Positions 4,698-37,911 of a stretch of DNA of 64,000 bases are shown piece after piece. Below the pieces are notes generated by a model. That model was given only the letters and a program-made list of their open reading frames with translations, was not told where the DNA came from and searched no databases. The DNA comes from Cyanidiococcus yangmingshanensis (taxonomy: Eukaryota; Rhodophyta; Bangiophyceae; Cyanidiales; Cyanidiaceae), in contig VWRR01000018.1 in the NCBI GenBank assembly GCA_013995675.1, positions 186,001 to 250,000 on the forward strand, given 5' to 3'. Each line of letters begins with the position of its first letter. The stretch's first letter is position 1. Made by a program: the position numbers and the translations under genes.

Positions 4698-4738
4698 GTA
4701 AGTGTCTCATTCTGAAAGAATATGCTTGTTCATTCTAG
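4698..4738 (+). other. Candidate 41 nt 5' intron of ELP2
   Basis: An ATG at 4690 is followed by two codons, then GTAAGT at 4698 and a pyrimidine-rich end in TTCTAG at 4738. Splicing would join MSA in frame to PGGGIEV of the ELP2 frame. The consensus donor, acceptor and frame all agree, but 41 nt is very short and the alternative ATG at 4722, inside the putative intron, also gives a continuous frame. This is inference. Confidence 0.3.
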
Positions 4739-7227
4739 TCCAGGTGGTGGGATCGAAGTTCAGGTGGAGCAAAAAATTGTGGGCTGTCGTCCTGCAGCCT
4801 ACCACTGTTTAGATTTTGCACTGATCAGACGGCACGATGTTGACCCCGGGACGGCTTTGCCATCTCTCGCTCTCAGCAATGATAGAGTCGTTTACACGGC
4901 AGGTCTGGACGGAATCGAAGAGACGCTCATAGGTCATAAGAGTTGTGTTAACTGCCTCCAGTGGCAAAGAAGTGATCGTCGTGGAAGTCTACGGGGCACT
5001 GGACTGCTCGTGAGCGGCGATGCCGCGGGCACTGTTTGTATTTGGAACCCACCAAACCTGATGTTCACGATCGATTTGGCTGAATGCGGTTTAGCTGCAG
5101 GGTTTCTAGAAGATAGCGAGGCCGCTTCAGTTACTTGCGTTTCACTTCCCCCAGCGTGCCCTTCACCGTACTCTGAAAAAGCTTATTTCCCTATCTTCTG
5201 CGGCACTTCTGCAGGCAGACTGTACGCGATAGCCTCTCCAAGTGAGGTGACTTCTGCTGAGCTGGCTGCGCTGCCAGAGAGCATCGCATGCGCGAGGCTG
5301 GAATCGAACGAGAGTTGGCAAGGAGTCGCGGACTGCAAACAGTATGTTATATTTGTCGGGAATATGATCGGATCAATTGAAGGTTTCTTGTTCGATGGAG
5401 AGCGGTTTTCTCTGAGGAGGTTGACAGTTATTGAAGGACATACGAATTCGGTTCGTGATCTGGACCTGTGTTTCTGCAGCTCGTATCCGATGCATCTGAA
5501 TCAGCGAATGCCTCCGAAAAGGCGAATGGAACAATTAATGCTGGCTTCAGCTAGTCAAGACGCAACTGTGCGCCTTTGGATCATCGCCTCTAGAGCTCAA
5601 AATGAATCTTGGGTTATAGCTGACGAGGCAGATTGTTTCGCAGTAATCGATGAACATCAGGCTGGGGTCTCAACTACAAGATTCATAGTGCCAATCGCCC
5701 TGCGTAGACGGTGGTCTTCAGTTGTTAACGGCAGCCTTTGATAGAACTGTGAAGATTTGGAAGCTGGAGAGCGAACCCGAATTCAAGGCTGAGAAGGTTG
5801 CTGAGATGGCGATCGTAGGCGAACAAGGTCACTTTTATGGATTCTTTAGTGCCACATACGGAGAGTGGGCCGATGGAAGTCGAATCGTTTTTGCGAGCAC
5901 ATACACTGGAGCTCTTTTTCAATGGCAGCAGAAAGTTGGAGACTCCTTGTGGCAGAGTGCAGTTCCGATGTTTACTGGACACAATCGGGCTGTGACAGAC
6001 CTCGATTGGCAATGTTCAGGCGGTTCAGTTTTAGCCACCGTTTCGCGAGACATGACCTGTAGACTTTTTATTCGCGAAGATGCGAAATCCATACCAAAGT
6101 GGACGGAGGCTGGGCGACCACAAGTGCATGGTCATGAAATTTTCGCTTCAAAATTCGTAGAGAGAAATGGTCTGAAGCTAGCAACGGCCGCAGAGGAGAA
6201 AGCGATTCGATTATTCGATGCACCGCGAACTTTTCTCGATATTTTGGGCCCGACGATATACAGCTCTCTGTTGGGGACACAAAATGGTGGAAAAGATCGG
6301 GCGAAAGGTGCCTCTCGCATGGCGCTGTCACTGACAAATCAGCCGATATACGACTCTGTTGTGACAACGTCGCGTAGTCGTGTTCAAGACGCGAAACAAG
6401 AGTCAAAATCTGGAGAGCTCGGCGGCGAGAAGGATGGTCGAATACCGTTTCGCACAGAAGCCATGTTGCAGCAAGACACTCTCTGGCCGGAGAGCGAGCA
6501 ACTGTTCGCGCACTCGAATAATTTGCATTGCTTGGCATCCCATTCTTTGGACTCCGGTTCTTTTATTCTAGCATCTGCATCTGTTGCCAAATCTAGACGC
6601 GAAGCCGCTATTCAACTCTGGATAGTGAAAGACTCCGCATACGAATGGGGCACACTGAATGGACATGAATTGACGGTTACCGATATGCGCTTTAACCAGT
6701 TTCAAGAGGGGTGTACGGATCGAATGTTTTTGCTCTCTGTATCAAGAGATCGCTCCTGGATTGTGTGGGATCTGAGTATGCAGCGAATGATGACACGCAA
6801 GAAAAGCGCCCATTCGAGAATGATCCTGGCCTGCGCGTGGTTGGACTGGAAAAGGGGGCTTGTGGCTACAGGAGGCCGGGATAAGTGTGTTCACTTGTGG
6901 GGGATTTCGAATTTCCCTGAGAGCTCTCCAGAGGCCCAACACGAGCTATTAAGAACTTGGCGCTTTAGCGGCGCTGTGACAGCAATGGATGCGAGAGTCA
7001 TCGGAAGCACCCAGAACGTCCTCATTGTGGGTCTTGAAAATGGCGCGCTGCATGCCTTGCTAGTCGATGTTGAACCGCCTTTCGAAGCCACAGAAATTCT
7101 GCTGCCATCGAACGCAAAACACGGACGGGCTGTGACTTGTGTACGATTTCAGCCTGGGCCAGAGGGTGTCTTTGCATCATCCAGTGAAGATAGTAGTGTG
7201 CTTGTGGCCCATCTACGATGCTCCTGA
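4722..7227 (+). CDS. ELP2: Elongator complex protein 2 (ELP2), split by a +1 frame change
   Basis: ELP2 is a double WD40 propeller subunit of Elongator, which modifies wobble uridines of tRNA. The first frame (4722-5741) has WD repeats with GHKSCVNCLQW and ASASQDATVRLW. The second (about 5689-7227) carries LLTAAFDRTVKIW, RPQVHGHEIF, TLWPESEQLF, LTVTDMRF, VSRDRSWIVWD and TGGRDKCVHLWG, in the same order as in animal and plant ELP2. Joined they give about 830 residues, the normal family length. The frames overlap; homology says the first is correct up to TTRF (5684) and the second from about SPCVDGG (5695), so one nucleotide is skipped near 5685-5692. No intron of believable size fits. The start may be 4722 or a spliced ATG at 4690. 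Identification is firm; the cause of the frame change is unknown. Confidence 0.88.
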
Positions 7228-7555
7228 AGCCTCGTTGTGTCACGATGGGCCATAGAACTCCATTTTCATCCGCCTGCAACTGCTAGATCATGAAACATGG
7301 AAAGAGATTTCCTTTAGGTTTCGGGGTTCCAGCGCCGTGTTCAACCGCTTCGAATCGTCAGGCTCGAATAATGCACTCAGTCAACTGGGAGTCTAGTCTT
7401 TCGCGCGCGAGAGCCCAAGTCTCAAGCGATGCACCTCAAGACAGAAACTTTTATCAATGTTTAACCCAAAAATTGCTCCCGCGGATGACCAGATTTTCTC
7501 CACGTGCCGAACCATTCATTGATCTGAGTCAGGCCCCTGCCCTCGGGTGCAGATC
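7228..7555. other. Intergenic, convergent 3' ends
   Basis: Spacer between the ends of ELP2 (+) and RSH (-). No supported gene or structured element was seen. Confidence 0.5.
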
Positions 7556-10500
7556 TCATTCCTCCTCATTGTCTGCATCTTCAACTTCATGTTCGAGGAG
7601 ACTGCCAGCCATGGCTAGAATCTCCACTTCGCCAGGTTTCAGGCGAGCTAAAGTCTGCGCATAAGATGACGTTGCTTGTATATCAACAGCGCCGAGATGA
7701 TCCCGAATACGGCATATTTCCACAACATCATCAAACTGAGCTAAGCGTGCACGCAAGCGCTCAATCTGTTCCTTTTTCTCCACAACTATTTCGAAGAAGA
7801 GTATAGCTGTGTCTTTTGCTACACGGCTAGAGGACGCCACGATCGAAAGTCTGACCCCAGATATTGCCCCTGCAATGCGCGACAAAAGACCAGGTCCATC
7901 TTTTGCCATCACGGCGATGCGCACCGGATACAGGGAACGTGGGGCAAGCCAGCGAACACTAACACATGCCTCAGGATCACCTCGAAGACTCGCCAGACAA
8001 CGGGTACAGCGCAAACGGTGCACTTCGAATGCAGCTGGCACGCCTTTGCTTGCTGGTCGAATTCGGATCGCAACAATGCGATCACCTGGAACAGGATTGC
8101 AGCAGCAAGCCGCAAAACACTCAGGTTCCAGCTCACCAGCAGTATCGCGGCTCCGGTCGGTATCGTGTGCTATGACCCAACCATCGAACACCTCTTTCAC
8201 GCTTCTTTCACGTGCAGGCTCGATATCTGATGATTGGATGGAATGTTGAATGGAAGCCACAGTGGAATCCGAGGACTCTTTCACTCCATTGGAATTCGGA
8301 TAATTCAGGAAATTGACCGGTGAAGTGAGACCGCTCTCATCATCTTCAGCGAAGGAGCCATCACCTTCAGTCTCTGACGCGGACCCTTCGAAGGAGTTCG
8401 CATCCCGTCCCCCCGCGTCCCTGAACTGCTCAAGAGCCACCAATTTTTGCAAAAGCTCAGGGTTAATGTTATGGTGAAAATGGCGAAGAATCGTCGCTGC
8501 TGCAGTAGTGCCCCCAGATCTGCATATAAAGACCAGTAGGTCTTCAAGACAGCGTATCTCTTTTGCATGATCTGGGGCACAAACCTTTTTCACCAGGATA
8601 CTTAGTTCAGCCTCAAGCGACGTATCACTTGGAATGTCGAGTTCCTCTAGATGCAGCCGTCGGGCAGTTTCGCGAAGGATCTGTCTTCCTCGTTCGCATG
8701 ACTCTTTCACCTCTCGAACTCGAAGAAACCGTCTTATTTTCTGCTTAGCAGTTCGCGAGCGAGCATATCGCAACCACTCGCGGCTCGGGCCGGGTGCAGC
8801 TGCTGATGTAATGATTTTGACGCTGTCTGCGTTGCTTAACTCATAGTCCAGTGGAACGAAACGACCTGCCACGCGAGCCCCAATCATTTGGTTACCCACG
8901 TCAGAATGGATGTGGTAGGCAGCATCAACAACAGTGGATCCCTTTGGAAGATCCAAGATGTAATTCTTCGGAGTGAAGACGTACACACGATTGCCGAGAA
9001 GATCCTGCTGAACCGCGTCCACACAGGCCTTGGAATTTCCGGAATACTGCTGACAGTACTCAAGGATAGTACGAAGCCAGTCCTCGGTGCGTCTTTGCCA
9101 GCGATTCTGTGGCACTTTTCCGTCAAGACTCGCTTCGTGCCCCAGAGTTTTCTGGACTTTGGTTTCTGGCCAAAATTCTACTGCTATTCCAAACTCGGCT
9201 TGAACGTACATGCTTTCAGTGAAGATTTGAACCTCCAAAGGATGAAATCCTCCTTTGGGGCCCAAGATGACCAGCGTGTGTAAACTCTGATATCCATTCG
9301 GCTTGGGATAAGCAACAAAGTCTTTCACATGCCCAGGAAATGGACGAAAGAGCGAATGAACACGCCCGAGGACGTGATAGCAAATATTACGTTCAAATAC
9401 CGGATCCTCGTGCTCCTTCTCTAACTCCACAACTAATCGGACAAACGCAATATCGTGCATGCTCTCAAGCCGTGCTCCCTGTATGATCCGCTGATATATT
9501 GAGTAGAGATTCTTGAGTGCGACTTCGGTCCGAATAGAGCGCACAAGCGGTCGCACGATAGAGTCGTTCTCCAGTGATTCCACTAGCATGTCAGCCGCTT
9601 GGGCGAGATTCATCTCAAGGTGTATGCGATCTTTGTATATGCGCACCTGCTCCGAAAGCTGGCCATACTCATTCGGATAAAGGAAACGAAAGGACAAGTC
9701 CTCTAACTCCGTCGCAATTCGAGCCAGACCAAGGCGATGTGCCAGAGGAACAAATATTCCTAGGGTTTCCTGAGCAATACTCTGTTGTTTCAAGGGAGGC
9801 ATATGTTCCAAGGTTCGCATATTGTGAAGGCGATCAGCTAGCTTCACGATGATAACACGAACATCCTCTGCCATTGAGACAAACATTCGACGAATATACT
9901 CGGCTTGTTGCTCCTCTTTCGATAGATTCGCTGCACTCACAAGCCTCTTGTCCACCAAATCCGAGATTCTCGATCCGTTCAATGAGATCTGACTGTTTCC
10001 AAAACCATTTTCTAGTGCTGAAGAATCAGATTCGTCTCCACCAGCCAAGTCGTGATCTAGACGTAGATCGTTGATTTTGCTTCGTACTGCTGCGGCTGCT
10101 GCTGAGGCCGCGGCGGCGGCAGCCGAGGCCGCGGCGGCAATCATTGAGACAGGGGCCATTAAAGCTCCATTTGCATCAATGTTTCCAGTTCTTGGCTTCA
10201 TTTTCCTCGCAATTTTGGATACCTTGGTCTCGGATTCCACAATATTGCGGACATCACGTCCGAAAAGTCCTTCTACAGTATCAAAAGTCAAATCAGTATC
10301 CTCCACAGCGTCGTGCAAAAGTCCAGCGACGAGCGTGTCTACGTCCATGCGCAAGTCCGCCAAAATAAGTGTCACAGCCACAGGATGCGAAATGAAAGGC
10401 TCTCCTGAACGACGAAGCTGTCCACTGTGCGCTACGAAGGCTACCTCAAGAGCATGTCGCATTTTTTCCGTCTCTTTGATATCCAGATATCTCGTTTTCT

Positions 10501-10798
10501 CTCGAAGTGACTCCCACGATTGTGACATCAGCTCTCTCTCCGATTGAGAGAGCGCTCTAACCTTGAACTCTAGCGAAGCTGAATCAAGACGCCAAACCGC
10601 AGGAGAAGGATCGCCCGCAGAAAATCTCAGCTCTCTTGGCCATCGCGAAGCACGGGCTCGGCGCCTCGTTCGTAGAACGCATTGTTCACTCCTCCAGGGC
10701 AACCCCGCAGAGAGCTCTGGACCGCCAGAGGAAACCCTGCTACAACACCGGCGATTGAGCGGCACCAAGAAACCTGCTACAAAACCTGGTTTCCCCAT
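7556..10798 (-). CDS. Long RelA/SpoT homologue, plastid (p)ppGpp synthetase/hydrolase
   Basis: Makes and degrades the alarmone (p)ppGpp, probably in the plastid. From the chosen ATG (10798) the protein is about 1080 residues: a putative transit region, HD hydrolase (about 120-335; ISHP, LLHDAVEDT and KLADRLHNM intact), synthetase (about 440-560; HDIAFVRLV, HVKDFVAYPKPNGYQSLH, LEVQIFT intact), TGS (about 610-675), a Cys-rich CCCNPVPGD zinc-finger region, and a C-terminal ACT domain. Both activities should therefore be present. The start at MGKPGFVAGF was preferred because the frame has no ATG further upstream and this N-terminus has the Phe-Val feature of red-algal transit peptides. Unusual: an insertion of about 90 residues with a poly-alanine run (about 220-237) splits the HD domain between its HD and D motifs. 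The family is long established in bacteria, plants and algae; location is inferred. Confidence 0.92.
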   Translation of the reverse strand: MGKPGFVAGFLVPLNRRCCSRVSSGGPELSAGLPWRSEQCVLRTRRRARASRWPRELRFSAGDPSPAVWRLDSASLEFKVRALSQSERELMSQSWESLREKTRYLDIKETEKMRHALEVAFVAHSGQLRRSGEPFISHPVAVTLILADLRMDVDTLVAGLLHDAVEDTDLTFDTVEGLFGRDVRNIVESETKVSKIARKMKPRTGNIDANGALMAPVSMIAAAASAAAAAASAAAAAVRSKINDLRLDHDLAGGDESDSSALENGFGNSQISLNGSRISDLVDKRLVSAANLSKEEQQAEYIRRMFVSMAEDVRVIIVKLADRLHNMRTLEHMPPLKQQSIAQETLGIFVPLAHRLGLARIATELEDLSFRFLYPNEYGQLSEQVRIYKDRIHLEMNLAQAADMLVESLENDSIVRPLVRSIRTEVALKNLYSIYQRIIQGARLESMHDIAFVRLVVELEKEHEDPVFERNICYHVLGRVHSLFRPFPGHVKDFVAYPKPNGYQSLHTLVILGPKGGFHPLEVQIFTESMYVQAEFGIAVEFWPETKVQKTLGHEASLDGKVPQNRWQRRTEDWLRTILEYCQQYSGNSKACVDAVQQDLLGNRVYVFTPKNYILDLPKGSTVVDAAYHIHSDVGNQMIGARVAGRFVPLDYELSNADSVKIITSAAAPGPSREWLRYARSRTAKQKIRRFLRVREVKESCERGRQILRETARRLHLEELDIPSDTSLEAELSILVKKVCAPDHAKEIRCLEDLLVFICRSGGTTAAATILRHFHHNINPELLQKLVALEQFRDAGGRDANSFEGSASETEGDGSFAEDDESGLTSPVNFLNYPNSNGVKESSDSTVASIQHSIQSSDIEPARERSVKEVFDGWVIAHDTDRSRDTAGELEPECFAACCCNPVPGDRIVAIRIRPASKGVPAAFEVHRLRCTRCLASLRGDPEACVSVRWLAPRSLYPVRIAVMAKDGPGLLSRIAGAISGVRLSIVASSSRVAKDTAILFFEIVVEKKEQIERLRARLAQFDDVVEICRIRDHLGAVDIQATSSYAQTLARLKPGEVEILAMAGSLLEHEVEDADNEEE

Positions 10799-12147
10799 AT
10801 CATGGGGATAGTTTTCAACTATCTGCACCTCGAGCAGTGACTCGACGAGCTCAGGAGACCACGTAGAAACTGTTCTCTCTCCGAACAAGGAGCTCAATAA
10901 GAGGAGCGCCCGAGTCTGCAACGGCAGACATCATTCCGGCGGCGCGCCTGTCGATTGCACTCTGGCTCACCCCATCTGTTTTATTTACAAGGCGCGTGTC
11001 TCGAAGGTGCGCGATCACGCAGTTCGTCGCTTCATTGAGCAAAGCGCTCAATCACGGCGTCGCATGCTAGATCAAAATAGCCTGGTAGCTGTTTTGAGTG
11101 CCATGCACATGGAACGCAATCGTTGCCGTATTCCTTTGGTGAGCAGCGTATCATGGAGTCGCCGAAACAAGCTAGCATTAAAATTTCTGAATTTTCCATG
11201 TTTAATTTTTTCAACTGAGCAACTACCGGAACATGTCACAACCAGCTGGGCCAAATGATGCCCAAACCCTCAATTATGTCTGAAATCGCCAAACTACAGA
11301 AAGTTTGACACCGGGAGATGAAAGTTGGAGTGAACACTTGCCTCGAGAGTCGCATTCGGGCGCAGAGAACATGCCATCGCCCGCACGCATGAGCTCTCCC
11401 AAAGAACGGTTACAAATACGATCCCGTGAGAAAATTCTCGTCGTCTACTAGAAACCTACATAATCCGATCGTGCTAGGATGCTGAATATTTGGATGAATT
11501 CGACTTAGTTCTCTGCATTAAGCTTAGTTTTTCATCGGCGGCTACTTCTGCATGTCGGTACACGATAGAAGAAACGCTCATGGAGAAAACATCACCAACA
11601 GATCAGAGAAACGAATCTCAGGCGCTCCGCATCCAAATGACCTCGAATCATGGCCGTCAAATTCCCTACTCTGCCTCACTGTGCTGGCCTCTGAAATTTG
11701 TGCGTATTCGCCATTTCATGGACAAAGGCCGGATATCTTCCGTTGCCCGAGATGAACAAGTCGAGTTTCCTACTGCTTCTTGAAAGAAAAGACGGGCAAA
11801 ATGAGGCAGTGATCCATCCCTACAGGAAAACATGTAAACCTCTCCATTGAACTCTCTTGAAATAGCAGTTCTCTTGATGGTCCGGGACTTTACCGTTCGT
11901 ATCATCACCCCTCGGTCTGTAATCAGCCATGCTCCTTATGCGAACAGTCTTGGAATTGTCGCAGTTTTATAGAGTAAGCCGAGCTACCTACCCGAGTCGA
12001 AAATGAGTCGAGCCTCCCGAATGTCCGTCGCGGTCTTTCGGCTTAGCGGCGATTTCAGAAACACTCAGTCGTACTATCTCGTCGATGAACTCGACATTTT
12101 GAAAGCTCTTTCGTAGAACTTTCTACTGAAACTATTGAGTCATTCAT
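10799..12147. other. Divergent intergenic region, 1.35 kb
   Basis: Upstream region shared by RSH (-) and the farnesyltransferase gene (+). The RSH frame stays open without an ATG up to about 10930. Frames at 11490-11783 (+, TTG start) and 11666-11908 (-, GTG start) are open but lack family features and proper starts, so I do not call them genes. Confidence 0.4.
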
Positions 12148-14875: not shown

Positions 14876-17800
14876 TTATTCCGTGAAGCAGATCGAAACC
14901 GTCCTATGCGTGGGATCCTCTTCGAGAGCCGGATACCCGAAACCGTCTCGTACATAGAAATTGGGTTCTGAGAGATCGCTCCCAGAAATACTCGGCTGAT
15001 TTGATACCACGCTATCATCTGAATCGGATTCGCCCTTTTCGTAATCGTCTAGTACCTCCTCGGGTAGGTCCTTCAGATAGGACATTCTAGATTCACATTG
15101 CTCTATTTCTGCATGAATGCAGTTATTGTCTTCTTGAGGGTCTGCGTTTTCGAGAATTCTCAAAGCGAATTGCTCTTCGGTCGTCACATCTGGCGGCGCT
15201 CTCAAATTGTATGCATATAACCCGTTCCATGAAAGAATTTCTCCCCGGAGGGCCTCAGATCGCAGCACAACACGAGGGTAGAGCATAGACAAACGCTTAC
15301 CAGCAGTATCATTTTTTTCATGGTGCTTTTTTCGAGGTTTGGATACTTTGCTGGCTTCACATAGTTTGTCACATAAGCGCAAGGCGTTCCGCAATACAAA
15401 AGCAACTGCATCTCGCACAAAAGAAATAGACATGTCCCCTTGAGGTCGCACGTGATTCAGAAAACTAAGCTTGGTTTGCAGTAAAGGCAAAATAGTCAGA
15501 AGCTCGTTGAAAAGAACAACTCGACAAACTTCGTCTTCTAATCGATTCTTTTCCAAGAAGTTAACCGTCCGCAAACAGATATCTATGCAATAATATGCAT
15601 ACCGGAGCTGGCTGCGTAATCCGCCAAACCCATTACGAGTGCAAAGGCGCAGTAAGCACAGCGCAAGCCACGGCGCCGACGCGCTGGTGAGACACGCAAA
15701 CTCGGGATGAGGTTCTGGGAATTTCCAATCTTCAATTATTGTGAGCACACGTCTTGCTTCATGCAATGAAACATCCATACCGAGGCTGCAAAGCCATTTC
15801 CAAAGGCGATATCTTTCGTAGAGATAGGGATGGCGCGAGGTTCCCCCACATGGCGAGCATAGGTAATTGCGAATATCCTTCGCGTTCACCTCTGCATCAA
15901 AACGTCGTGTGAGCGCATACTTTCGGAGCGAGACACACCGATCACGTATTCTTATTAGTTGCTCGCTGTCTGGCTCTCGATGTCTGATTCTCTGTATGCG
16001 ATGCGTCCATGCACAACTCGAAGACATTCGCAGCTAATACGGCCTCAAGAGCGGTGCGTGCACTAAATGTAAGAATTTCAAAGTATTCAAGCGGGTCGTA
16101 TCCCAAAACATCTTCTAACGTCACCTGCTCGGCACAGGAAATATTGGCGATGGTCAAGTACCACAGGCGCAAGAGTGCTGGCGCTAATTCCAAACAGAGC
16201 TGATTTCCCTTGCGCATGCAGAGAATTGTCGTTTCACCTAGGTAATCTAGCCATTCTGTATTCGAAAGAAGCGAAGCAAGGTTCTCAGACTGGGCATCTG
16301 GCAAGTCTCGTCTCTCAAGTTCATTGAGCAAACAAACAATCTGACTAGCTGAATGCAAAAGGTCTGAATGAATGATCCGGGAAATCCTCAGGCTGATGCT
16401 CGTTTCTTCCGGACAAGACTTGTATAAAGCCTCGATTCTCGCAAGAAAGTGTTTGGAGTCTGGGACACGCTCTAGAAGAAGCAGCATGCCAACGGCAAGG
16501 GCTCGCTCAAGCTTATCTAAGGCGCGAGAGTAAGCGCCCATAATTCCAGGCACGATCGCTCCGCTTTCCTGACCAATTGAAGTGAGAAGGATCTGACGCC
16601 CATGGATAGCGGCTTCCGCGGCACTTGCAACTTCGCCGCTTTCCATGGTGGATATCGCTGCTGCTAATCGCATCAAATTATCATCGCAAGGCTCAAATGA
16701 ACTCTGCTTTTGTGTCAAACAGCTAACGAAAAGAGAAACCTCGTAAAGTTTGATAGTTTCTATAGGCAATGCCAGCCGCAAGTCATTGCATGAGCTTTTC
16801 ATGCAGGCACGGTAGGCACGGAGCGCTGATTGAGTGAATAAAAGTGTGCGCTTTGAAAAAATGGCTGTATGGAAAGTCTGAGAATCTCTCATGATGTCAT
16901 GCGGCAGCATTTTCTCGAGAGAATACGCGAACATTCCAGGATCTATACCATGTTCAACAGAATCAGCGATCAAGCCTAGGAGAGCGGCAGCGGAGATCTC
17001 ACGCGCATCCGCTGGCACCGAATCTAGGATTCGTTTGAGAACCATGTATCGTTCATCAGCGCTATATCCCGGAGGAGACGCTCGAATATATAGCCGGGAG
17101 ACATTGCAGGCAGAATTCCATTGCCATAAGGCCTGCTTCCTGATCAGTGAGCTTACGCTGGATAAAGCAGATGGTTCTGCTGCACCCAGTATTCTGAATA
17201 CTTCCGCAAGTAAATTCAGAATAGCTTCTTCGTGAAGAACAAGCGGGAATGAAGCAAGCCGGTCGACTATGAGTTGAGAAAACGATAGCATTGCCTCTGT
17301 CTGATAAAGGCAAAGGTCACGTAGAATAGTCGCGGCCCGAAGTCGTAAGATCTTTCGACGTTGCTGGAGGACAAGCGAGCTTCCTGACTGAAGAGGAACC
17401 GTTCCATTGAAACAGATTCCGAGCATGTCTTTCACGATATCCTTTCTGATATCTCGAAAAAATTCGAAGCATGTTGGTGTGCAGAACAGTAGAATCCCGC
17501 CTGCATCTTCCAGAGCATACATTGCTCGCAAGAAGCGTAGCGCTCCAGACGAAAATCGTTGAACGACGGGAGCGTATTTTGGTAGCATGCTCTTCAGACT
17601 TGCTACCGTTACGAGTCCAGAGTTGATGCTTGTTGAAACAACGGATTCAACGATTCTATGAAGACGTGCGCGGGAGAGCATGAATATCCAAAGACAGAGG
17701 TCAAACGGGCCCAGGGCTTTTCTTGAAGGCACCTCGAGCGAACCTCGGGGGCGGCCAGTTTTTTTGTCGGCGGTCGGGTCCTCATCGAACTGGATGCGAT

Positions 17801-18539: not shown

Positions 18540-20695
18540 ATGTCGAGCCGTAGTCGCGGGCAGTGGCTTGGGTCTGTTGAGAATCAGCACTTCCTGGAGT
18601 TCGTTCTTCGATGGAAGGAAGAAAAATCATTCGAATGGCGAAAAGGGTTTAGATGAACTAGTAGGCGAACTTTCCAGGGCGTTTTCTGGGTTCAGGCGTT
18701 TGCCGCGGCGTTCGCAGTACCACGCCGCGACGAAAGCACTTTCTGTCCTGAGCAGCAGCTCTCGCGCGTTCCTGACTGGTTTAACGGAAAAATTTGAAAA
18801 CATTGAGACGGATCCGGAAGAAAAAAATATGGTGTCTAAGGCCCAGGTTGGAGAAGCCACAGCGCCGCGTAGTAATAAGCAAGCGTCCAGTACCGAAACG
18901 AGCTCGATTTGCCGACATATGCCAAGAGCCTATCGCGCAGTCTCGGTCTCAAACCGCGATGACCTTTCTCGTCCCTCAACCGAGCCAACGCTACAGCGAC
19001 ATTGGTGGTATTGAAAGTGCACTACTACTTATTCGTGAACTTGTCGAGTGGCCCCTGCGATACGTACAGCTTTACACGCACCTCGGGGTCGATCCGCCTC
19101 GCGGTATACTGCTCCACGGGCCTTCTGGTTGCGGGAAAACACTCCTTGCGAACGCTATTGCTGGGGAGCTAGGCGTTCCTTTTCTTAAGGTGTCGGCGCC
19201 TGAGTTGGTCGCCGGACTTTCAGGAGAGTCTGAGCAGCGTGTCCGCGCATTGTTTGAGGAGGCGAAGTTGCTGGCGCCATCACTCGTCTTTATAGATGAA
19301 ATAGATGCAATTACGTCTCGGCGGGACGCATCAAGCAGAGAGATGCTGCACCGTATAGTTGCCCAACTGCTGACTTGCCTCGACTCGATTTCTTTAGAGC
19401 AAACGGACAGCCGCGCAGTTGTTGTAATTGGAGCCACTAATAGGCCAGAGGCTCTGGACCCAGCCCTTCGACGCGCAGGCCGTTTTGATCGAGAAATTGA
19501 ACTCGGTGCTCCGGATGAAGAGGCACGAGAGAAAATTTTGCGCTGCGTCTCGAGGAGAATGCTCTTATGCGAGAATTTCAATTTCAAATGGATTGCTCGT
19601 CGGACAGCTGGTTACGTTGGGGCGGATCTCGCAGCCTTAGCGACCGAAGCAGCGGCAGGCGCCATCAGGCGCATTGGATATGAACTGCTATTGAGCCCTT
19701 CATCCGCATCGAAGACGGCTGAACTTGATGTGACGAAATTGGACAAGTTATATGTTTCGATGGACGATTTCCAGCTAGCGCTCGGCCGAGTTCAGCCGTC
19801 TGCGTTACGCGAAGGTTTTTCTACAGTTCCAGATGTGACATGGGATGATATTGGCGCGCTGGATGACCTGCGAGGTGAGCTCGAGATGGCCGTTATCGAG
19901 CCATTGCGAGAGCCAGAAAAATTTGCTCGGTTTGGTATCGGTATCTCAGCTGGTGTTCTATTGTACGGTCCTCCAGGTTGTGGGAAAACTTTGCTCGCGA
20001 AAGCTGTCGCCAATGAAAGCGGCGCGAATTTTATTTCAGTGAAAGGACCAGAACTGCTTGATAAGTATGTTGGAGAGAGCGAACGAGCTGTGCGGCGTCT
20101 CTTTCAACGCGCTCGAGCAAGTGCGCCTTGTGTGATCTTTTTCGATGAACTCGACGCGCTTGCGCCGCGTCGCGCATTTGGGGGCTTTAATGTTTCCAAC
20201 ACCTCAGATAACGAAGCCGTAGGTTCGAACGCCAGTGAACGGTTAGTGAACCAGCTATTGACCGAGCTTGATGGAATTCATCCCCGCAAACAAGTGTTTG
20301 TGATCGCTGCGACCAATCGACCGGATCTGATAGATACAGCCATGCTGAGACCAGGGCGTTTCGACAAGCTGCTTTACGTTCCATTGCCAGATGAATTTGG
20401 CAGACGAGCAATCCTTCAGGCTGGAGCAAGACGAGTGCCGATCGATCCAGGTACTAATTTGGGCGCCGTCGCGGCCGCGGCCCGTGGATTTTCTGGTGCT
20501 GACCTCACGGCCCTTATTCGGGAGGCAGCTGTGTGCGCCCTGCGATCTGACGCCCCGACAATAACGGAAGACCATTTTCGAGCGGCTCTGCAGAGTGTGC
20601 TGCCGTCTGTCAGCCCACGAGATGCCGCCTTATACGATGCAATGCAGCAGAATTTGCGTCGAGCCCGAGGACACGTTCGTGAGAATGTCGTTTGA
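18540..20695 (+). CDS. NVL: NVL/RIX7 AAA ATPase for 60S ribosome assembly, in three frames
   Basis: NVL/Rix7 is a nuclear double-AAA unfoldase releasing factors from pre-60S particles. The last frame (about 18830-20695) has both AAA modules: D1 with [25 protein letters not shown]2 with [22 protein letters not shown] and [12 protein letters not shown], plus VSVKGPELL-type and [10 protein letters not shown] sequences typical of NVL rather than CDC48. The N-terminal domain is spread over two other frames: from ATG 18540 ([17 protein letters not shown]) to about 18640, then 18641 to about 18820 ([19 protein letters not shown]), together matching the winged-helix-like N-domain. Each transition needs one nucleotide skipped; the second has a run of seven A at 18821-18827. 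In D1, GPSGCGKT has Ser where GPPGCGKT is usual. Without the N-domain, translation could begin at the internal ATG just before the D1 domain (MTFLVPQPS). Confidence 0.87.
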
Positions 20696-20714
20696 TGAAG
20701 CCGCTCTCTGTTTC

Positions 20715-22617: not shown

Positions 22618-24915
22618 TCAGACTGTATCGAATTTCACGGAACGTGGCTCCAACGATATCTTACCACAAAAGGAACCGCTTCGTTTCTTCTTGATTTTCA
22701 TTTTTCGAAAAGCTTTGCCTTGATAGGCGGAGAGCTCTTCCCAGGTTTTTTGCGCATATGCGTCCTTCGGCATAGGATCAAATAATTCGGCTTGCGGGGA
22801 AAAAAACTGATCCTCCTGAATGCGGCGGAAGGGTGCATTCGGTTGTTGGAACTTTTTGGTTCTCGCCCCGTTTTGCTCTCTTGAGATGCGCCTGTCAACT
22901 GGGTGCGAATCGCACAGTCCATGAGCTGTAGTTGTCATGTCTACCCTCAAAGCTCCCGTGGCTTCGTGGTCAACTGAACGCGAAACAAGTCCAGCATCTT
23001 CCTCTACTACCCTGCCATTGTGCAAATCGTTTTCGGAAGAAACGGATTCTTGTTGTCCGGTCTGATTAAATCCAGCTCTTGCCTCCTTTCGTGAGCCTGA
23101 TGCCCCCCCTTCGTTCGTGTAGAGCATGCGAGGACTCTCAATCTCGCCTCTGTAATGCAAATTTTGCGAGCTCTCACGCCTTTTCTCAGATTCTCTGGAG
23201 ATATCGACATTTGCATTCGGTTGAAATGGCTGTAGGGAGGCATACCCGTATCTTCTTTCACTTTTCTCGTCATCATCATCGGACACACTCTCAGCGCCGC
23301 TGCTTTGGTGTGGGTCCAATTTTTTCGATCCAGCTGATTCAGTTTCTGTTTCAAAGTTTTTCTCCGATGGTATCTTCCCCGATCCGTTTTGGAGTCTTTT
23401 TGAGGAATTTTCATTACGTCTAATAGGAATTCGTGTCGGTTGGATTCGAGCTTCCGGGCGATCTATTTCTGCTTGCTTTGCGAGTTCGTTATCGACAGAA
23501 TCATGTCTCTTTGACGATGACGATGATGATGACGAAGAAGACGACACAGCCGCACGTTTTGCAACAGGCTGTGCAGATCGACGTGACGATGACGATGACG
23601 ATGACGAAGAAGACGACACAGCCACACGTTTTGCAACAGGCTGTGCAGATCGACGGGCAACCGCGCTGCTCATGCCAGTCGACATGCCTTTTGATGCTGG
23701 AACAGATTCAGCTGACGATGACGATGACGATGACGATGATGATGACGAAGAAGACGACACAGCCGCACGTTTTGCAACAGGCTGTGCAGATCGACGGGCA
23801 ACCGCGCTGCTCATGCCAGTCGACATGCCTTTTAATGCTGGAACAGCTTCAGCTGACGATGACGATGACGATGACGAAGAGGACGACACAGCCGCACGTT
23901 TCGCAACAGGCTGTGCAGATCGACGGGCAACCGCGCTGCTCATGCCAGTCGACATGCCTTTCGACGCCGGAACAGCTTCAGCTGACGATGACGATGACGA
24001 TGACGATGATGATGACGAAGAAGACGACACAGCCGCACGTTTTGCAACAGGCTGTGCAGATCGACGGGCAACCGCGCTGCTCATGCCAGTCGACATGCCT
24101 TTTGATGCTGGAACAGATTCAGCTGACGATGACGATGACGATGACGATGACGAAGAAGACGACACAGCCGCACGTTTTGCAACAGGCTGTGCAGATCGAC
24201 GGGCAACCGCGCTGCTCATGCCAGTCGACATGCCTTTTGATGCTGGAACAGCTTCAGCTGACGATGACGATGACGATGACGAAGAAGACGACACAGCCGC
24301 ACGTTTTGCAACAGGCTGTGCAGATCGACGGGCAACCGCGCTGCTCATGCCAGTCGACATGCCTTTTGATGCTGGAACAGATTCAGCTGACGATGACGAT
24401 GACGATGACGATGACGAAGAAGACGACACAGCCGCACGTTTTGCAACAGGCTGTGCAGATCGACGGGCAACCGCGCTGCTCATGCCAGTCGACATGCCTT
24501 TTGATGCTGGAACAGCTTCAGCTGACGATGACGATGACGATGACGAAGAGGACGACACAGCCGCACGTTTCGCAACAGGCTGTGCAGATCGACGGGCAAC
24601 CGCGCTGCTCATGCCAGTCGACATGCCTTTTGATGCTGGAACAGCTTCAGCTGACGATGACGATGACGATGATGATGACGAAGAAGACGACACAGCCGCA
24701 CGTTTTGCAACAGGCTGTGCAGATCGACGGGCAACCGCGCTGCTCATGCCAGTCGACATGCCTTTTGATGCTGGAACAGCTTCAGCTGACGATGACGATG
24801 ACGATGACGAAGAAGACGACACAGCCGCACGTTTTGCAACAGGCTGTGCAGATCGACGGGCAACCGCGCTGCTCATGCCAGTCGACATGCCTTTTGATGC
24901 TGGAACAGATTCAGC

Positions 24916-24948
<33 letters not shown>

Positions 24949-25694
24949 TGACGTGCGAGCAACTGAGACTGAATGCATCCCGACCTGCATTTCTGACATG
25001 CGTTGAAGCTGTTTCGAAAGCATTTGATGTGCTATTAAACGTCGATCCTGGAGAGCGGAATATCCCGTTCATAACTGTTGGAGAGCCACCTGAAATACGC
25101 TCTTTGAGGAGATTCCTTGATGAGGAGTTCTCACGCGTCAATGCAACTCCTGGTGCCAGCAGAGATGCGGATTCCTCTTTAGAATCAAACACGACACGCA
25201 CTCCCTTCTCGGAATTGTGCCGATCCTCACTTTGCCGATAGCTCGTAGACGCGTTTGATAAAACTTGAAGTTCTGAAAAGCAGTCAGATTCCTCAGTTGA
25301 CTGCATATCTTGCTGGGAGGCTGAGCAACCGAGCCCAATCTCCATAAACAGCTCAGAGTCCAACTTTCTGATGGAGTCGTCCAAGTAACACGCCTCTCGC
25401 TGGATACTCAGTGTCGTCGCCGAACTGCACGAGGTAGTTGATCCATCCTCGTCCTGCATCGCCTGAGAGCCAGCCACATGCCTGGGTCGAGATGTGCGGG
25501 GAGCGCTTTTGGGATAATTTCTCAGCCGACTCCTGACGGAGCGATTCTGCAGTTCTCTTCAGACCAACATTTCGTAGAAAGCGAAACACTGCGCCCAAGA
25601 GTCCACTCGATCGCCGCTTCCGTGCGTTGCTGAACCGCCTCATTTCCACCCGTGCCGCCTCCTTCCGCAAGCCATCCTTAGTTTTGGGGGGCAT
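22618..25694 (-). CDS. NOLC1: Nopp140/SRP40-like nucleolar phosphoprotein, in three frames
   Basis: Nopp140 (yeast Srp40) is a nucleolar and Cajal-body chaperone of snoRNPs. The C-terminus holds an SRP40_C domain: NAPFRRIQEDQFF, YQGKAFRKMKIKKKR and ending SVKFDTV. Upstream lie ten serine-run/basic repeats, the classic alternation of CK2-type serine tracts with Lys/Arg/Ala/Pro linkers. The N-terminal frame, from ATG 25694, carries a LisH motif (LLGAVFRFLRNVGLKRTAESL), as in Nopp140. The gene is spread over three overlapping frames: 25694-25353 (LisH), 25477-24911 (Ser-rich linker), 25023-22618 (repeats and SRP40_C). Each change is in the sense of one nucleotide skipped, or an intron of length 3n+1. 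Long plus-strand frames across the repeats (poly-Asp and Thr-Met) are by-products of the repeat composition. Confidence 0.82.
23515..24960 (-). repeat. Coding minisatellite, ten units plus a partial
   Basis: Ten full units of about 130-145 bp plus a truncated one, each encoding a serine run of about 11-16 residues followed by AEAVPASKG, MSTGMSSAV and RRSAQPVAKRAAV. Units are nearly identical in DNA, apart from variable numbers of the hexamer TCGTCA (read on the minus strand) in the serine run and Ala/Ser alternation in AEAV/AESV. This points to recent homogenisation. Confidence 0.95.
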
Positions 25695-31262: not shown

Positions 31263-31584
31263 GCCACTCTTATGTAGTCGAAGAAAAACTGGCACCAAAA
31301 TATTGCCTTTAGAAGCTCCTTCGTTCAGATCATCCGCTAGAAAACGTTTCTCCAGGAATCATGATCCATACGAAAACAGAGTACAGCTGACGATCTCGCT
31401 CGAGGCGCACGACAACCGCGCATTATAGTCGACGTCGGAAAACTCAGTTCGAGGCAAAAGATATTCCTATCACGCGATTTTTCTCGCAGCAAAAAGCATT
31501 CGAATCGCACTAATCAAACTCATTCTCTATGAAAAGGACCTTGAGAAATGACAAAGCCGGTGAATATTCTTAGAAGTTGCAGAA
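31263..31584. other. Divergent intergenic region
   Basis: Spacer between the ClpB start (-) and an unknown gene (+). No gene seen. Confidence 0.45.
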
Positions 31585-32430
31585 ATGGTCCCCAGTGTTC
31601 ATTGCGGTAACGAGAGAGTTCGGCAGTGCGGATTGTGGTTCTGCTCGTATCGAGGATGGCGTATGAAATCCATTAAGTCTGCCTGCTGGGGATATACGAA
31701 TCCATCTATGAGCTCAGAGGATGAGATAGCGTCGGTGATTGAAGCAAAAGCATTCCGAAGTTCACGAAAACCCTTGCTCGCATTCGATCCGCGAAGTTAT
31801 CTTCGCTCACTATTTCAGCTGCTCGATCGGGTGTCCTACCATTTTCAAAGACTACTCTCGAAATATCGTGTAGTTTTTGAGAAGGAGAATTTCTTGCACT
31901 CGTATTTTGCAAAGCGGCTCAGTGGCAAAACCTGGCGCATTTCCTCCGACAATCGCGAGATCGCTTGCGAAGAGCACCTCCTTTTGCGCATTCTCCCAGA
32001 CCGAATCTCGGTAATCAGCAGTTTTGTGTGTTCAGGAGTTTCATGGCATAGAAGGATGAAAGCAACAACAAGCTTCTCAACTCCATCAGCAACTCTACGG
32101 TTTGACCATTTACCTGTATCAAAAGGTGTGTGCAGAGTAAAGAAACATACGTGGAAGCGGAAAAACTCAGAAGTGAGGAGTTTCTTGCTGCGTTCGCAGC
32201 ATTCGAACCCTGAAACGAGTGGGTCCCAATTTCCAGCAGATGAACACACTGACGCTTTTGGTCGTGATCCAAGAAAGGAGGCGGAGGCCTGGAGGGAAAC
32301 TGCTCGTGAAGTTCTCGAAGCGAAACCAGTTCAGGATGCGATCCACAAACATATAGAGCAGGAGCAAGTGCAGGCGCGCGTACCAGCAGAGCGGGAGAAA
32401 ACTGCCGATGATTCCGAGCACAACGGCTGA
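31585..32430 (+). CDS. Unrecognised protein, 281 residues
   Basis: I do not recognise this protein. The frame opens at an ATG; a second ATG at residue 27 is a reasonable alternative start. The central region (about 60-150; AFDPRSYLRSLFQLLDRV, EEHLLLRILPDRISVISSFV) looks like a folded alpha/beta segment. The C-terminal 60 residues are charged, rich in Glu, Lys and Gln, and probably helical or disordered. No signal peptide, membrane span or metal-binding motif is evident. It is flanked by ClpB (divergent) and SEC11 (same strand, 1.1 kb away), which gives no functional hint. Confidence 0.55.
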   Translation: MVPSVHCGNERVRQCGLWFCSYRGWRMKSIKSACWGYTNPSMSSEDEIASVIEAKAFRSSRKPLLAFDPRSYLRSLFQLLDRVSYHFQRLLSKYRVVFEKENFLHSYFAKRLSGKTWRISSDNREIACEEHLLLRILPDRISVISSFVCSGVSWHRRMKATTSFSTPSATLRFDHLPVSKGVCRVKKHTWKRKNSEVRSFLLRSQHSNPETSGSQFPADEHTDAFGRDPRKEAEAWRETAREVLEAKPVQDAIHKHIEQEQVQARVPAEREKTADDSEHNG

Positions 32431-33542
32431 AAAATGTTCTGATATTGTATGCGCGGATACTTGGCATCATTGGGATACAATGCACAAATATTTGGAGCAT
32501 CAAACGTTTGGTATGCGATTTCATCACACTAACGCGCTCGCTGACCAGCAGCCTTCGTGGCGTGCGTGGTGATCCTTCCTGTTTCATGATCGTTATGAGG
32601 CCTCACAGGAGTTCTACGACAAAGTAACGAGAACGCCGTTGTGCTGGCTTGTATTATGAAAGGCTTGAGCTGCTCCAATTATTGGGGAAGACACACGTCC
32701 AAGAATGCTGAAATGTAGCGGATGCCTCGCTACTCTGACGCCTCTTTGTTGAAAGGGATTCTGTCTGATAATGTCAGGCTATGAATGGAATGGGATCCAT
32801 TTTTCTGGATGGAGCCACGGGACTTGACCTAACTGAATAGGGGCGAAGAACAGAGGTCGTTTGAACTCCCCATTTCTCGATTACGTACCTCCAGCGGCCG
32901 ATGTATGAATCGACGAGACTGTTTTCCCTGACCCGAATTTCAGCCTAGCGCAATAATCAAAATTCATCCATAAGGGATACTAAAACGTGGACTAAGTTGA
33001 TGTTTGGGTTTTAAGAGACAGTCTGCCGACGATGGTTCTGAAAAATGCGAGCCGTGAAACGCCATTTTCTGAAGAGGGAATCGCGATCTAAGCTCGCTTC
33101 AAACCTATACAGTCGCTTTGAATTGAGCGGAATTCTTGGCATCTGCACATCCTCACACCGCAAGGGTTGGTCAAAAGACCCACTGAAACAACTGAGAACT
33201 GCGAAAATTCGAGTTCAAACAGTTAGGGAGTCAAGTTGATGCTTTTTAGAAACCAGTGCGGTCATGCATGCGAATGAATCATGGATATTGTGGCTTCGAA
33301 TAAATCGGATTAGGCACAGGACCAAGCACTTTGCAGCACCGCTGCTGCCTGAAATCGGCTAGAGACCTGGTCTCAATCTAAAACACTCTTTTCAAGATAC
33401 GTTGCCGTTGCCGTTGCCGTTGCGCGAGCACTCCGCCTTCTACGCGAACGAACACTGGTTCACTAAAAACAACCTGAACCCAACTTTAAAACGCTGGACA
33501 GGGGCGCGTTACTGTCTAGGGTCAATAGCGGCAGCAGCGCAC
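32431..33542. other. Intergenic, 1.1 kb
   Basis: Region upstream of SEC11. It contains a short tandem run of TTGCCG (four copies, near 33400-33425) inside the open but ATG-less extension of the SEC11 frame. No other gene is supported. Confidence 0.45.
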
Positions 33543-34250
33543 ATGGACCGCACTGAAAACAAAGATCTGCCTGGCGGAGTCTATCCACGGGGAAGCGAGC
33601 AAAGACTCAAAGATGAGCCGGCCGTAACCAGAAGCCGTTGGAGACGCACTTGGGGTTTTTTCGGAATTGGTACTGGCTCCGCAGCGACCTCTGATGTGCC
33701 AACACCTTTCGTACTCCGACTGGTGCCTTTGTGCGCTCTAGCGCTTCTGCTTTGCTCAGCTTTCGTTGGCTGGAGAGCTCTCGTTTTGTGGACTTTCTCA
33801 GAATCTCCCGTGGTTGTCGTTCTGAGCGGTAGCATGGAGCCGGGCATTCACCGAGGCGATATCCTATTTCTTAGCAATCGTACCTCACCCTCTAGGCCTC
33901 TTACGGTGGGTGACATGGTGGTCTACAACTTACGTGATCGTAGTCTGCCCATCATACATCGTATTATCGAGGTGCATGAGAGATCTCCGCTGGGTGCGGG
34001 TCCTGGAATCCCAATGCACGACTCTAGCCTTACAAAGTACTTCCTCACCAAGGGAGACAACAACTTCGGGGACGACAGAAGCTTATATTCTGCCGGTCAG
34101 AAATGGCTGCAACGAAGCGATATCGTCGGACGAGTCATTTTTATCGTTCCGAAAGTCGGCATTGTAACAATACTTATGAACGCGCAAAGATGGTTGAAAT
34201 ATACCATCATTGGACTGCTCTCAATAGCTTTGCTACTCATGGCAGAATGA
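33543..34250 (+). CDS. SEC11: Signal peptidase complex catalytic subunit SEC11
   Basis: ER signal peptidase that removes signal peptides from secretory proteins. From the ATG at 33543 the protein is 235 residues: an N-terminal cytosolic tail, a membrane anchor (VLRLVPLCALALLLCS), then catalytic serine in LSGSMEPG (about residue 97), HRGDILFL, the catalytic histidine in PIIHRIIEVHE (about 139), and the TKGDNN plus DD segment supplying the acidic residues (about 172-178). A second hydrophobic stretch near the C-terminus fits SEC11. The frame is open upstream to 33402 only from TTG codons in a TTGCCG repeat, so the later ATG is preferred; the tail is still longer than in animal SEC11. The stop is 23 bp from the SufE-BolA stop, tail to tail. 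Confidence 0.93.
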   Translation: MDRTENKDLPGGVYPRGSEQRLKDEPAVTRSRWRRTWGFFGIGTGSAATSDVPTPFVLRLVPLCALALLLCSAFVGWRALVLWTFSESPVVVVLSGSMEPGIHRGDILFLSNRTSPSRPLTVGDMVVYNLRDRSLPIIHRIIEVHERSPLGAGPGIPMHDSSLTKYFLTKGDNNFGDDRSLYSAGQKWLQRSDIVGRVIFIVPKVGIVTILMNAQRWLKYTIIGLLSIALLLMAE

Positions 34251-34272
34251 AAAGATTCCGCGCCAGCTTGCT

Positions 34273-35233
34273 CTACAACGACCCCTGCCTGTCATGAGCT
34301 TCGGCCGTTGTTAGAGTTATGATGCTTAGAGCATGAATTTTCCGGGAACTGAGCTCGTCATTGAGCAAAGCATAAACGAGTTGATGTCTCTTCACTTCTG
34401 GCAGATCTTTGAAGATATCGCTAACGATTTTGATCGTGAAATGTGTTTCTCCTCGGCGCACATGCGCTCCCTCGTGACCTCGATGTTTTGCAGAGTCATC
34501 TCGAATGACGACCGACTCTGGTTTGAGTATCTGAAGCCTCTTCTCGATGCGCTCTCGCACTGAGAGATCGCTCTCAGCGGATGCTTCAGGGTTGTCTGGC
34601 GAGCCAATCTTCAGAAGCTTGGCCTTTTCTTGCATTGTCTTCAGCATATTCAGAAATCCATTAGTGCGTCCTGGAGTTAAGCTGATGCTGAGCCCTGAAT
34701 CCTTTATAAACTCTGGGCTCACAGCACAAATTTCCTCAGCAGTGTACCCGCTTAAGCCATGTATTAGGAAAGCAACTAAACCTTTTGTAAGTTGGGAGTC
34801 TGAGTCTCCCATAAAGTCAATCTTCCCTTCCTTATTCGGCAATGCGTCTACGTGAACTACACTAAGACAGCCACGTACACGGTTTCCCTAAAACCCGACG
34901 TTCCCGGGGAAATGGAGGTAACGTGGCTGCCATATGCAGTAGCTGTTGCACCCTCAGTTTCTGATCTCCAAGCTTTTTGAAAGCCTCCACCAGTTCCTTG
35001 AGCTTTGGCGTCGTGTTCGTCCGGGTTCCATTTTGGTGTGGTGAAACGGTGTCGCAACACCACAAACGATTCCGAGGCAGCGCTCGTCGGTCCGCTGGAC
35101 GGTCCAGACTAACCGTGGAGACGCGAGACCAGCTTCGACCTCGCTGCACAGATTCTGATTTTGAGCCAGAATGAAATGCTTCCGGAGCTATTACGAAAGC
35201 GGGAAAGGAGCACCTTCTCTTCGGTTTCAACAT
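34273..35233 (-). CDS. SUFE1: SufE-BolA fusion, plastid Fe-S sulfur acceptor, split by a +1 frame change
   Basis: SufE takes persulfide sulfur from the cysteine desulfurase SufS and stimulates it; plant SUFE1 carries a C-terminal BolA domain, as here. The first frame (from ATG 35233, MLKPKRRCSF) has a transit-like leader with FPAFVIAP, then the SufE N-half LKELVEAFKKLGDQKLRVQQ and LPPFPRERRVL. The second frame (to 34273) begins with NRVRGCLS, holding the catalytic cysteine, then GDSDSQLTKGL, LSGYTAEEI, LTPGRTNGF, and BolA (RIEKRL, HRGHEGAHVRRGETHF, HQLVYALLNDEL, IHALSIITLT). Across the junction near 34885-34895 the spacing from LPP to NRV.GC is exactly that of SufE if a single nucleotide is skipped, so there is no room for an intron. 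The run TTTTAGGGAAACC lies at the junction. Confidence 0.9.
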
Positions 35234-36025
35234 CGCACTTCCCGGAGAAAATAGGAACTCACGAGATATGAATACGCCACTCTGCAACTCCGCCTAGTGA
35301 ATTTCGCAGCCTGGCTCCGCTGGGGCACTCGGCGAGTTTGCGAGCGCCTTTACGCGCGAGGTCCATTCTCCAAAGATGCTCTGGGAATTGCATTGATCGC
35401 ACAGGCCAAGATTTTGTCGCATATTTTAGCCGTGAGCTTTGGAAATGTGGTCTATAATTCATCAGACAGCGAAACGTTTCACGATCTGCGTATATGCAAC
35501 AGGAGCTTTCGCCGCGTACGTGGGTGCTTTCCAATGATTGATCGCTATCCTAGAGGTTACCTTCTTCGGCATTCCAGAGAATAAACGAACAGCACGTTTA
35601 AGCGATTTGTACACGATCTTGCAAAGCAGTCTAATTGCTGTTCTCTAGAGAAGCCGTAATGGTGCAAAACACTGCGGGCCGCTATGAATTTCAAGGGAAA
35701 CATTGGCTTTTCGATCCAGTCGCCATCTGTTCGAACAAGGCTCTCTCTCAAGCGGCGCGATATCACGATTCTTTTCGAATGGGAGATGTCCGAACAGAAA
35801 GCACCCGGACTAGTTATACATGAGGTGTTCGATCTGAGAGTACGCGCTCACCGGCTTACTTCTGCAGCTCTGAATCAAACATTAAACTGTCATGAATAAT
35901 CTGTCATTGAGAGAAACAGAGAAGGTCAGTCAAAAGTCATTCAAGGCTATGCCAGAAATGCCCACAGTAATTCTCTTCAGCGACCGCGTGATGTTCACAC
36001 CGCCCATTTGATGCCTTTCACTCAC
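35234..36025. other. Intergenic between SufE-BolA and MIP, with uncertain frames
   Basis: Upstream of SufE-BolA (-) and downstream of the MIP 3' end. A plus-strand frame at 35297-35584 (GTG start, 95 codons) and others at 35635-35899 look mildly protein-like but have no ATG or recognisable domain, so no gene is called. An ATG at 35268 (+) leads only nine codons to a stop. Confidence 0.35.
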
Positions 36026-37911
36026 TCATGCCAATGGCTCGGCTTGATGATTCATTCGATCTGGTGCCGGAAGCACTGGTTGGTCCGAAAAATTGTTCTC
36101 AACTAAGCCCATTTCTTCGGCGATGCCCTTGAAACTTGGTGCGGAACCACCAAGCAAATCGGACAGAATCTGTCTTGGTTCTCTGGCTGCCCCCAAACAA
36201 AGGCACTGCCAGCGCAAAATCTCTCCCGCACGAGACAAAGAAAGTGTTGGATTGCGAAATAAACAGCCCCATATCTCAGCAGCGAGCACTCTGGCTAGTA
36301 TGTAGGAGTAATAGCAGCCACCGTATCCAACAATATGTGGCAAGTATGGAAAGCTTTCCCGATTCACAGCGTGCTCTCGCGGTCCGTCTCCGTGCGCTGT
36401 CTGGCGTATCAAACGCCTGATTTTTGACTGCGCTTCGCTGCCCCAACCGAAATGACCAAACGAATGAAGGGCAAGGTCAAGAGCTGCAAACGGAGCTTGC
36501 AGATGAAGCTCTGCTATGACTGCCTCTTTCTTCGCCTCTTCCAAACCCTGCACCAGGCTAAGGGGCGCTTGCGGAGCAAATCTTCGCACCCAACCGGGAT
36601 CCCATGCGAAATTCTCCAAAAGATGACTCGGAATTTCAACGAAATCTAGAGGACCCCGAGTCCCAGACAGGTGCTGGAACGATGTTCTTGACAAGACAGT
36701 GTGCAGAACATGTCCGAATTCATGCAGCAACGTTTCTAACTGGTAGTGATGCATTCCGGAACCCCGAATTGATTCGGGAAAGTCGCAGACAATAGCAGCG
36801 CAAGGCTGCTGCAGCGATCCATCCTTTCGTCTACGACTTCCCCGCAAGGCGTAATGAGCGGCTCCGGGGATTTTGCCTTCCCGAGCGAAGAGATCGAAAA
36901 AGACTTCGCCTATCTGATTTCCGTCACGTTCGTCGATTACTATGGTGTACATCACACTGGGATGCCAGATCATGTCCTTGGACGCCCAGGATTGAAGCGG
37001 AAATACGCGAATGCCAAAGAGCTCTCCTAAAAGGGCGTTAAACACCTTCAAGACCCGATCCACCCCAAGGTAAGGCTGGATTTTGCCGAATAGCGGGTTG
37101 CAGTATGCTCGCACAGGAACCTTTGCTCGTCGCAGACTCCCATCGCGTGTCTTCGCGAGCAAAGCGGAAACCGAATCCAGAAAAGAGCTGACCTCCCCAG
37201 GATGCCTTAAAAGCTTATCTGCCGCAGCCAGATGCGCATAAGACGGGTAGGAGAGCGCCTGAGCCAAATCATGCCTTCGATTGAGCAGCGATATAAGGAC
37301 ATTCCATGCTTCTTGGGAGGAGTTTGCCCGCTGCTTGCGGTTCTCTGCTACCATTTCCGTCCTTTTCAGCACGGTGGAGACTCGTATACTCCAATCTATG
37401 ATTTCGTTTTGAATCGACATAATTTGCCTCCTTGTTTCTGGTGATTCGCTTGGCCCACCACGCACAGCAAAGTCCCGTTGCAGCGATCGAAGAAGTTCGT
37501 GCTCTTCCAATGTGGAGGCATTTTGTTTACGCAAGAGCGCATCATAAAGATTTCCATTGCTGTTAAGCTCTTGCATGTACTGAGACAACTCTCTCAGAAC
37601 GCTTTCGCTTGCTTCAACATGCGCTGGGTCCGGTGAGACATTTCTTGCTAGCTCTGCAGCATCTAGAACAGTTGCAAAGGGTATCAGAAATTTCGTCAAA
37701 TTCATATAACACGTCACTGCCGCGAATCAGACAAAATCTTTTCTACTAGCTTGTTGCAGGTATTGAGGGCCTGCTGCTTCATATTCAGCCAGTCTCTCGG
37801 CCTGCGAAGTCCTGGAAGGCCGTAAAGTCCACGAAGCTGCATCATGACCTTGGTGCCGACAGACGTCACCGGCAGGTCCGCGGCTATCGCCTGCGTCGTC
37901 AATGCATGCAC
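36026..37911 (-). CDS. MIPEP: Mitochondrial intermediate peptidase (M3 family), in three frames
   Basis: MIP/Oct1 removes an octapeptide from imported mitochondrial precursors. The main frame (about 37672 to 36026) carries the metallopeptidase site HEFGHVLH, then FQHLSGTRGPLDFVEIPS and LENFAWD, which are characteristic of MIP within the M3 family, and a C-terminal YYSYILARVLAAEIW. Its N-terminal part is in two other frames: 37911 to about 37716 has GLYGLPGLRRP (the GLFG motif) and LVEKILSDSR; a short segment then reads DVLYEFDEISDTLC; and the main frame resumes at TVLDAAELARN. Across the second junction, DEISDTLC/TVLDAAELAR aligns residue for residue with the family if one nucleotide is skipped near 37671-37676; the first junction (about 37714-37722) likewise needs one skipped. 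The true start is uncertain: MMQLRGLYG at 37845, or further upstream where the frame is open without ATG. Confidence 0.88.

Follow-up and report, generated by a model that had tools for sequence, protein, structure and literature searches.

In Euplotes-type +1 ribosomal frameshifting, the shift takes place at a stop codon. The other described systems that come closest are indel errors of long-read or collapsed assemblies. Excerpts of PMC8445201 describe a collapsed assembly of T. brucei Lister 427 in which nearby allelic variants gave rise to indel errors and truncated ORFs, with more than 500 genes altered by error correction. An excerpt of PMC12007338 gives long-read errors as mostly homopolymer-linked, with deletions outnumbering insertions in the two assemblies mentioned. 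As for the organism, extracts of two papers describe Cyanidiococcus yangmingshanensis as a red alga poor in introns, whose genome of 12.0 Mb comprises 20 chromosomes and has 54.6% G+C (PMC9812998), and a diploid strain of the species with 2.19% SNP/indel heterozygosity (PMC13353863).

The stretch analysed here (the window, 64,000 nucleotides) corresponds to bases 186,001–250,000 of contig C10, in an assembly of 12,072,675 bases and 20 contigs. The G+C content is 51–60% across 33 fetched loci of the assembly, and from its sequence we take the genome to be that of Cyanidiococcus yangmingshanensis or a very close strain. The assembly is a draft, as one of six contig ends inspected has telomere repeats: the right end of C10 (L035) carries 22 counted copies of the telomere-like AATGGGGGG, and the five other ends carry none. 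Two of the proteins used for comparison, P0121 and P0124 (the CCYA series), come from another assembly of Cyanidiococcus yangmingshanensis, in which the contig bearing P0121 measures 429,230 bases, against 420,780 for C10. Since PMC9812998 uses the abbreviation CCYA, we infer this to be its assembly corrected with short reads. The intact relatives differ slightly from the window proteins, at about 0.1–4% of residues, and thus represent other strains or alleles and not the same clone.

Six +1 changes were confirmed in the window, distributed over four genes (one in ELP2, two in NVL, one in the SufE-BolA fusion gene and two in MIP; Table 1). The change in ELP2, placed near 5685-5692 by a sequence-only reading of the window, is borne out by P0124 (CCYA_CCYA15G3944), in which ELP2 is intact over 834 aa; the joined window protein is 98% identical to it, the shifted stretches included, with eight scattered substitutions apart from the junction. 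For NVL, the same reading was right about two +1 changes but wrong about their positions (18640-18656 and 18821-18827); the frame of the intact P0121 (CCYA_CCYA15G3948) continues unshifted across the A7 run at 18821-18827. The start of NVL lies upstream of the first site, near 18540, as indicated by P0121 and the upstream frame. The first site had also been read as a −1 change on the assumption of a start at MEGRK, which proved wrong, as P0121 and the upstream frame give +1. The joined NVL protein is 95% identical to P0121, the shifted stretches included, and in the proper frames it equals P0121 except for the extra bases and one residue. The change proposed near 34885-34895 in SufE-BolA is likewise a +1 change, and in the joined protein the Pfam match to SufE extends across the junction. 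Both MIP changes, proposed near 37714-37722 and 37671-37676, were also found to be +1. MIP is intact at both sites in P0001 (605 aa, 96% identical), and P0002–P0004 are also without a gap there; at the first site, a stop comes about ten bases later in the window sequence. Every site that could be compared with a near-identical gene (one in ELP2, two in NVL, two in MIP) is intact in that gene, that is, five of five.

Table 1. Positions of the frame changes and candidate frame changes in the window
Feature	Position	Strand	Basis or status
ELP2, extra base	5687-5688	+	ORFs 4722-5741 and 5722-7227; placed by intact P0124
NVL, extra base, first site	18629-18631	+	Frame intact in P0121
NVL, extra base, second site	18890	+	Frame intact in P0121
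SufE-BolA fusion gene, extra base	within 34883-34888 (GGGAAA)	-	Frame reading
MIP, extra base, first site	37724-37726	-	Intact in P0001
MIP, extra base, second site	37670-37671	-	Intact in P0001
Overlap of two ORFs called FANCD2	15942-16027	-	+1 relation if one gene; unconfirmed
Nopp140-like gene with serine-repeat tract	22618-25477	-	Proposed breaks unconfirmed

The frame changes that had been regarded as probable in FANCD2 (one) and Nopp140 (two) were not confirmed. One of the putative FANCD2 ORFs gives a weak Pfam match (E 0.007), the other is without a Pfam match, and neither matches the PDB, so that membership of the family is weak or absent. In the Nopp140-like gene, SRP40_C at the C-terminus is the only recognised domain, and the proposed breaks are located in or before the serine-repeat tract. 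On both strands, several frames are open through the serine-repeat minisatellite inside this gene (window 23400–25000).

No motif common to the six window sites could be made out by eye, in agreement with the earlier remark that no common heptamer was obvious. The further remark that the shifts avoid stop codons, made for some of the sites, extends to all six, none of which (by eye) is located at a stop codon of the upstream frame. Among the placed window sites, only that of SufE (GGGAAA) touches, by eye, a run of three or more; a −1 change in CCT1, described below, touches such a run as well, and runs exceeding two bases are absent from most placed sites. The missing homopolymer tie lowers the fit to homopolymer-type error and leaves the fit to insertion noise or to collapsed alleles unaffected.

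Frame changes across the assembly were counted in two ways. A whole-genome search with nine Pfam families gave, among the matches listed, at least 27 frame changes between neighbouring fragments, at least 23 of them +1 and 4 −1 (binomial p 0.0003), these being lower bounds since only the best candidates were scored. Six families, considered only at loci with two or more fragments, account for 24 of the 27; the three further families added, among the matches listed, three +1 (all PF00022) and zero −1. The spacing of the fragments was tight for 11 of these 24 listed changes (8 +1 to 3 −1, p 0.23) and loose for 13 (12 +1 to 1 −1, p 0.003), a loose pair being more than 45 bases off the profile-predicted spacing and possibly including introns or inserted domains. 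Introns or inserted domains mistaken for frame changes may explain some of these 13 pairs, and 36 introns are reported for Cyanidiococcus yangmingshanensis in the excerpt of PMC9812998; for ELP2, NVL and MIP this explanation is refuted by proteins that run without a gap across the junctions in intact relatives. As a general explanation, introns have a negligible probability.

For the second count, about 346 kb was scanned with a self-trained coding-potential model, which called 120 genes, 20 of them with breaks (19 +1 and 6 −1, binomial p 0.015); 20 of 120 is a rough figure, as it may include false calls and the known breaks of the window were missed. Of 200 planted +1 breaks the scan recovered 137, and of 200 planted −1 breaks 151. 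With this slightly better recovery of −1, biased detection by the scan is not the source of the +1 excess. The final scan missed all six window sites, whose genes score low, and it therefore undercounts. Earlier settings gave +1 to −1 counts of 9:3, 9:4, 11:6 and 19:8, and other costs of the final model 22:7, 15:6 and 9:4. Genes with scan events were submitted to Pfam (15 of the 20 genes, 17 of the 25 events), leaving out C10:20668, 65455, 128169, 134914 and L032:5875 (six +1, two −1). A single domain match spans the junction in 9 of the 17 submitted events (7 of 13 +1, 2 of 4 −1); these matches include glycine dehydrogenase, ATP synthase OSCP and an ABC transporter (+1) and a Sec1-family protein (−1). 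The two counts are not fully independent, since the scan (L032) also covers two kinase loci on C7. Conserved genes on several contigs show breaks of either sign, with a ratio of +1 to −1 of about three to six to one. The proposal that all changes point in one direction is accordingly true of the six confirmed window sites but false for the assembly as a whole, where −1 accounts for 4 of the 27 listed changes and 6 of the 25 scan events. A genome-wide count of the two signs had been suggested as a check, with equal numbers as a refutation; both counts made here show +1 in excess, but the tightest fragment pairs alone do not establish the excess.

The prevalence of +1 and the many conserved genes affected are what would be expected of frequent +1 ribosomal frameshifting as in Euplotes, with real extra bases skipped by the ribosome. 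Extra bases used by the ribosome would be shared by close relatives, and none of the five testable ones is found in the near-identical genes, whether these come from the same species or from a close relative, which argues against frameshifting, as do the −1 breaks and the lack of a visible motif or an upstream-frame stop at the window sites. Nothing specific was found in support of the suggested genome with frequent +1 frameshifting, and we consider it extremely improbable. The strain could instead truly carry many single-base insertions, unlike its close relatives, and tolerate them by an efficient, motif-independent +1 frameshifting; to this version we give just as little credence. Removal of single extra bases at the RNA level (editing) would likewise yield intact proteins from broken DNA. 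However, nothing specific speaks for it, the genes have an intact frame in close relatives or in other assemblies of the species, which leaves nothing to remove there, and editing too would have to act at sites where no motif is visible by eye; its probability is close to nil.

The CCT1 chaperonin gene, of 1.6 kb, contains two +1 and one −1 change; its first piece best matches PDB chains named T-complex protein 1 subunit alpha. PSMD3 is also among the broken genes. CCT1 and PSMD3 are essential in other eukaryotes. That both are struck, and that 20 of the 120 scanned genes are broken, is difficult to reconcile with true frameshift mutations, that is, pseudogenes or null alleles of a heterozygous diploid. 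In addition, outside the breaks ELP2 and NVL hardly differ from the intact copies and show no other decay. Heterozygous SNPs and indels are described for a diploid strain of the species in the excerpt of PMC13353863, and they lend true mutations some plausibility; we nevertheless regard them as a very unlikely cause. RNA polymerase large-subunit matches at C9:89178, C5:392049, C6:189816 and C5:80188 lie in short open frames of 888, 904, 619 and 715 aa, which we take to be shorter than expected, and two other such matches lie in frames of 1593 and 1188 aa. The four short-framed genes may be broken too.

We are highly confident that the extra bases are consensus errors of the draft assembly and not features of the organism, a view that rests on comparison of sequences. 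The sequence-only reading had named insertion-biased assembly error as one possibility, and it is supported by the intact near relatives, by the occurrence of both signs and by the damage to CCT1. Consensus error would explain all of the observations together, namely relatives that do not carry the extra bases, the lack of a motif by eye and the presence of −1 breaks. A bias towards insertions need not have a biological cause. The +1 bias may have come from insertion-prone reads with insufficient polishing, and collapse of a heterozygous diploid may have contributed, allelic differences being misaligned and both variants written side by side; the excess of extra bases would then be a property of the reads and the consensus.

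Some observations count against consensus error. Unlike the long-read errors described in the excerpt of PMC12007338, the +1 sense prevails here, and most placed sites lie outside runs longer than two. A chaperonin gene with its flanks is present twice in opposite orientation on C11 (L003 and L004, near 100,700 and 186,400), 99.3% identical over 3,148 bases, and the two copies differ by 23 mismatches without a gap. Two kinase matches on C11 have identical scores and, with L003 and L004, suggest a large duplication or a misassembly. The window itself contains a direct repeat of 1.4 kb (3099–4493 and 38199–39602, 98.5% identical) with near-identical ORFs, perhaps a dispersed repeat; its copies show one 9-base gap in 1,404 bases and no one-base gap.

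Double-written alleles were considered at the seven placed sites, five of them placed via near-identical relatives, SufE via the frames and one a CCT1 +1 placed by comparison with the human protein; the other CCT1 +1, which had no assigned position, was left out. The extra base and its neighbour can form a transition pair at all seven (null 0.56 per site, p 0.018), in a test that was post hoc. Synonymous pairs are found at four of the seven (p 0.38), which is no excess, and the transition pair at the first MIP site would give a cysteine where P0001–P0003 keep an arginine. An origin of the extra bases in double-written heterozygous alleles is therefore no more than a suggestion.

The frame breaks are almost certainly not a new way of translating genes, judging by the comparisons above, and a tempting false lead is thereby removed. 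A real +1 system at such a scale, if true, would have counted as a discovery of great importance. For roughly one gene in six, the gene models made from this assembly may be in error, and with them counts of pseudogenes and comparisons of proteomes.

The resemblance to Euplotes-type +1 frameshifting lies in the many genes affected and the mostly +1 sense. The differences are that the window sites are off stop codons and without a motif by eye, that none of the five testable sites is conserved and that −1 changes occur. Indel errors of long-read and collapsed assemblies, as described in the excerpts for T. brucei Lister 427 (PMC8445201) and for bacterial drafts (PMC12007338), resemble the present case in that single-base indels fragment conserved genes and in that corrected or phased sequence restores the frame. 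The present breaks differ from these systems, as far as the excerpts describe them, in that +1 prevails by about three to six to one and in that they are mostly outside long homopolymers; the two assemblies mentioned in PMC12007338 have more deletions than insertions, unlike the assembly studied here.
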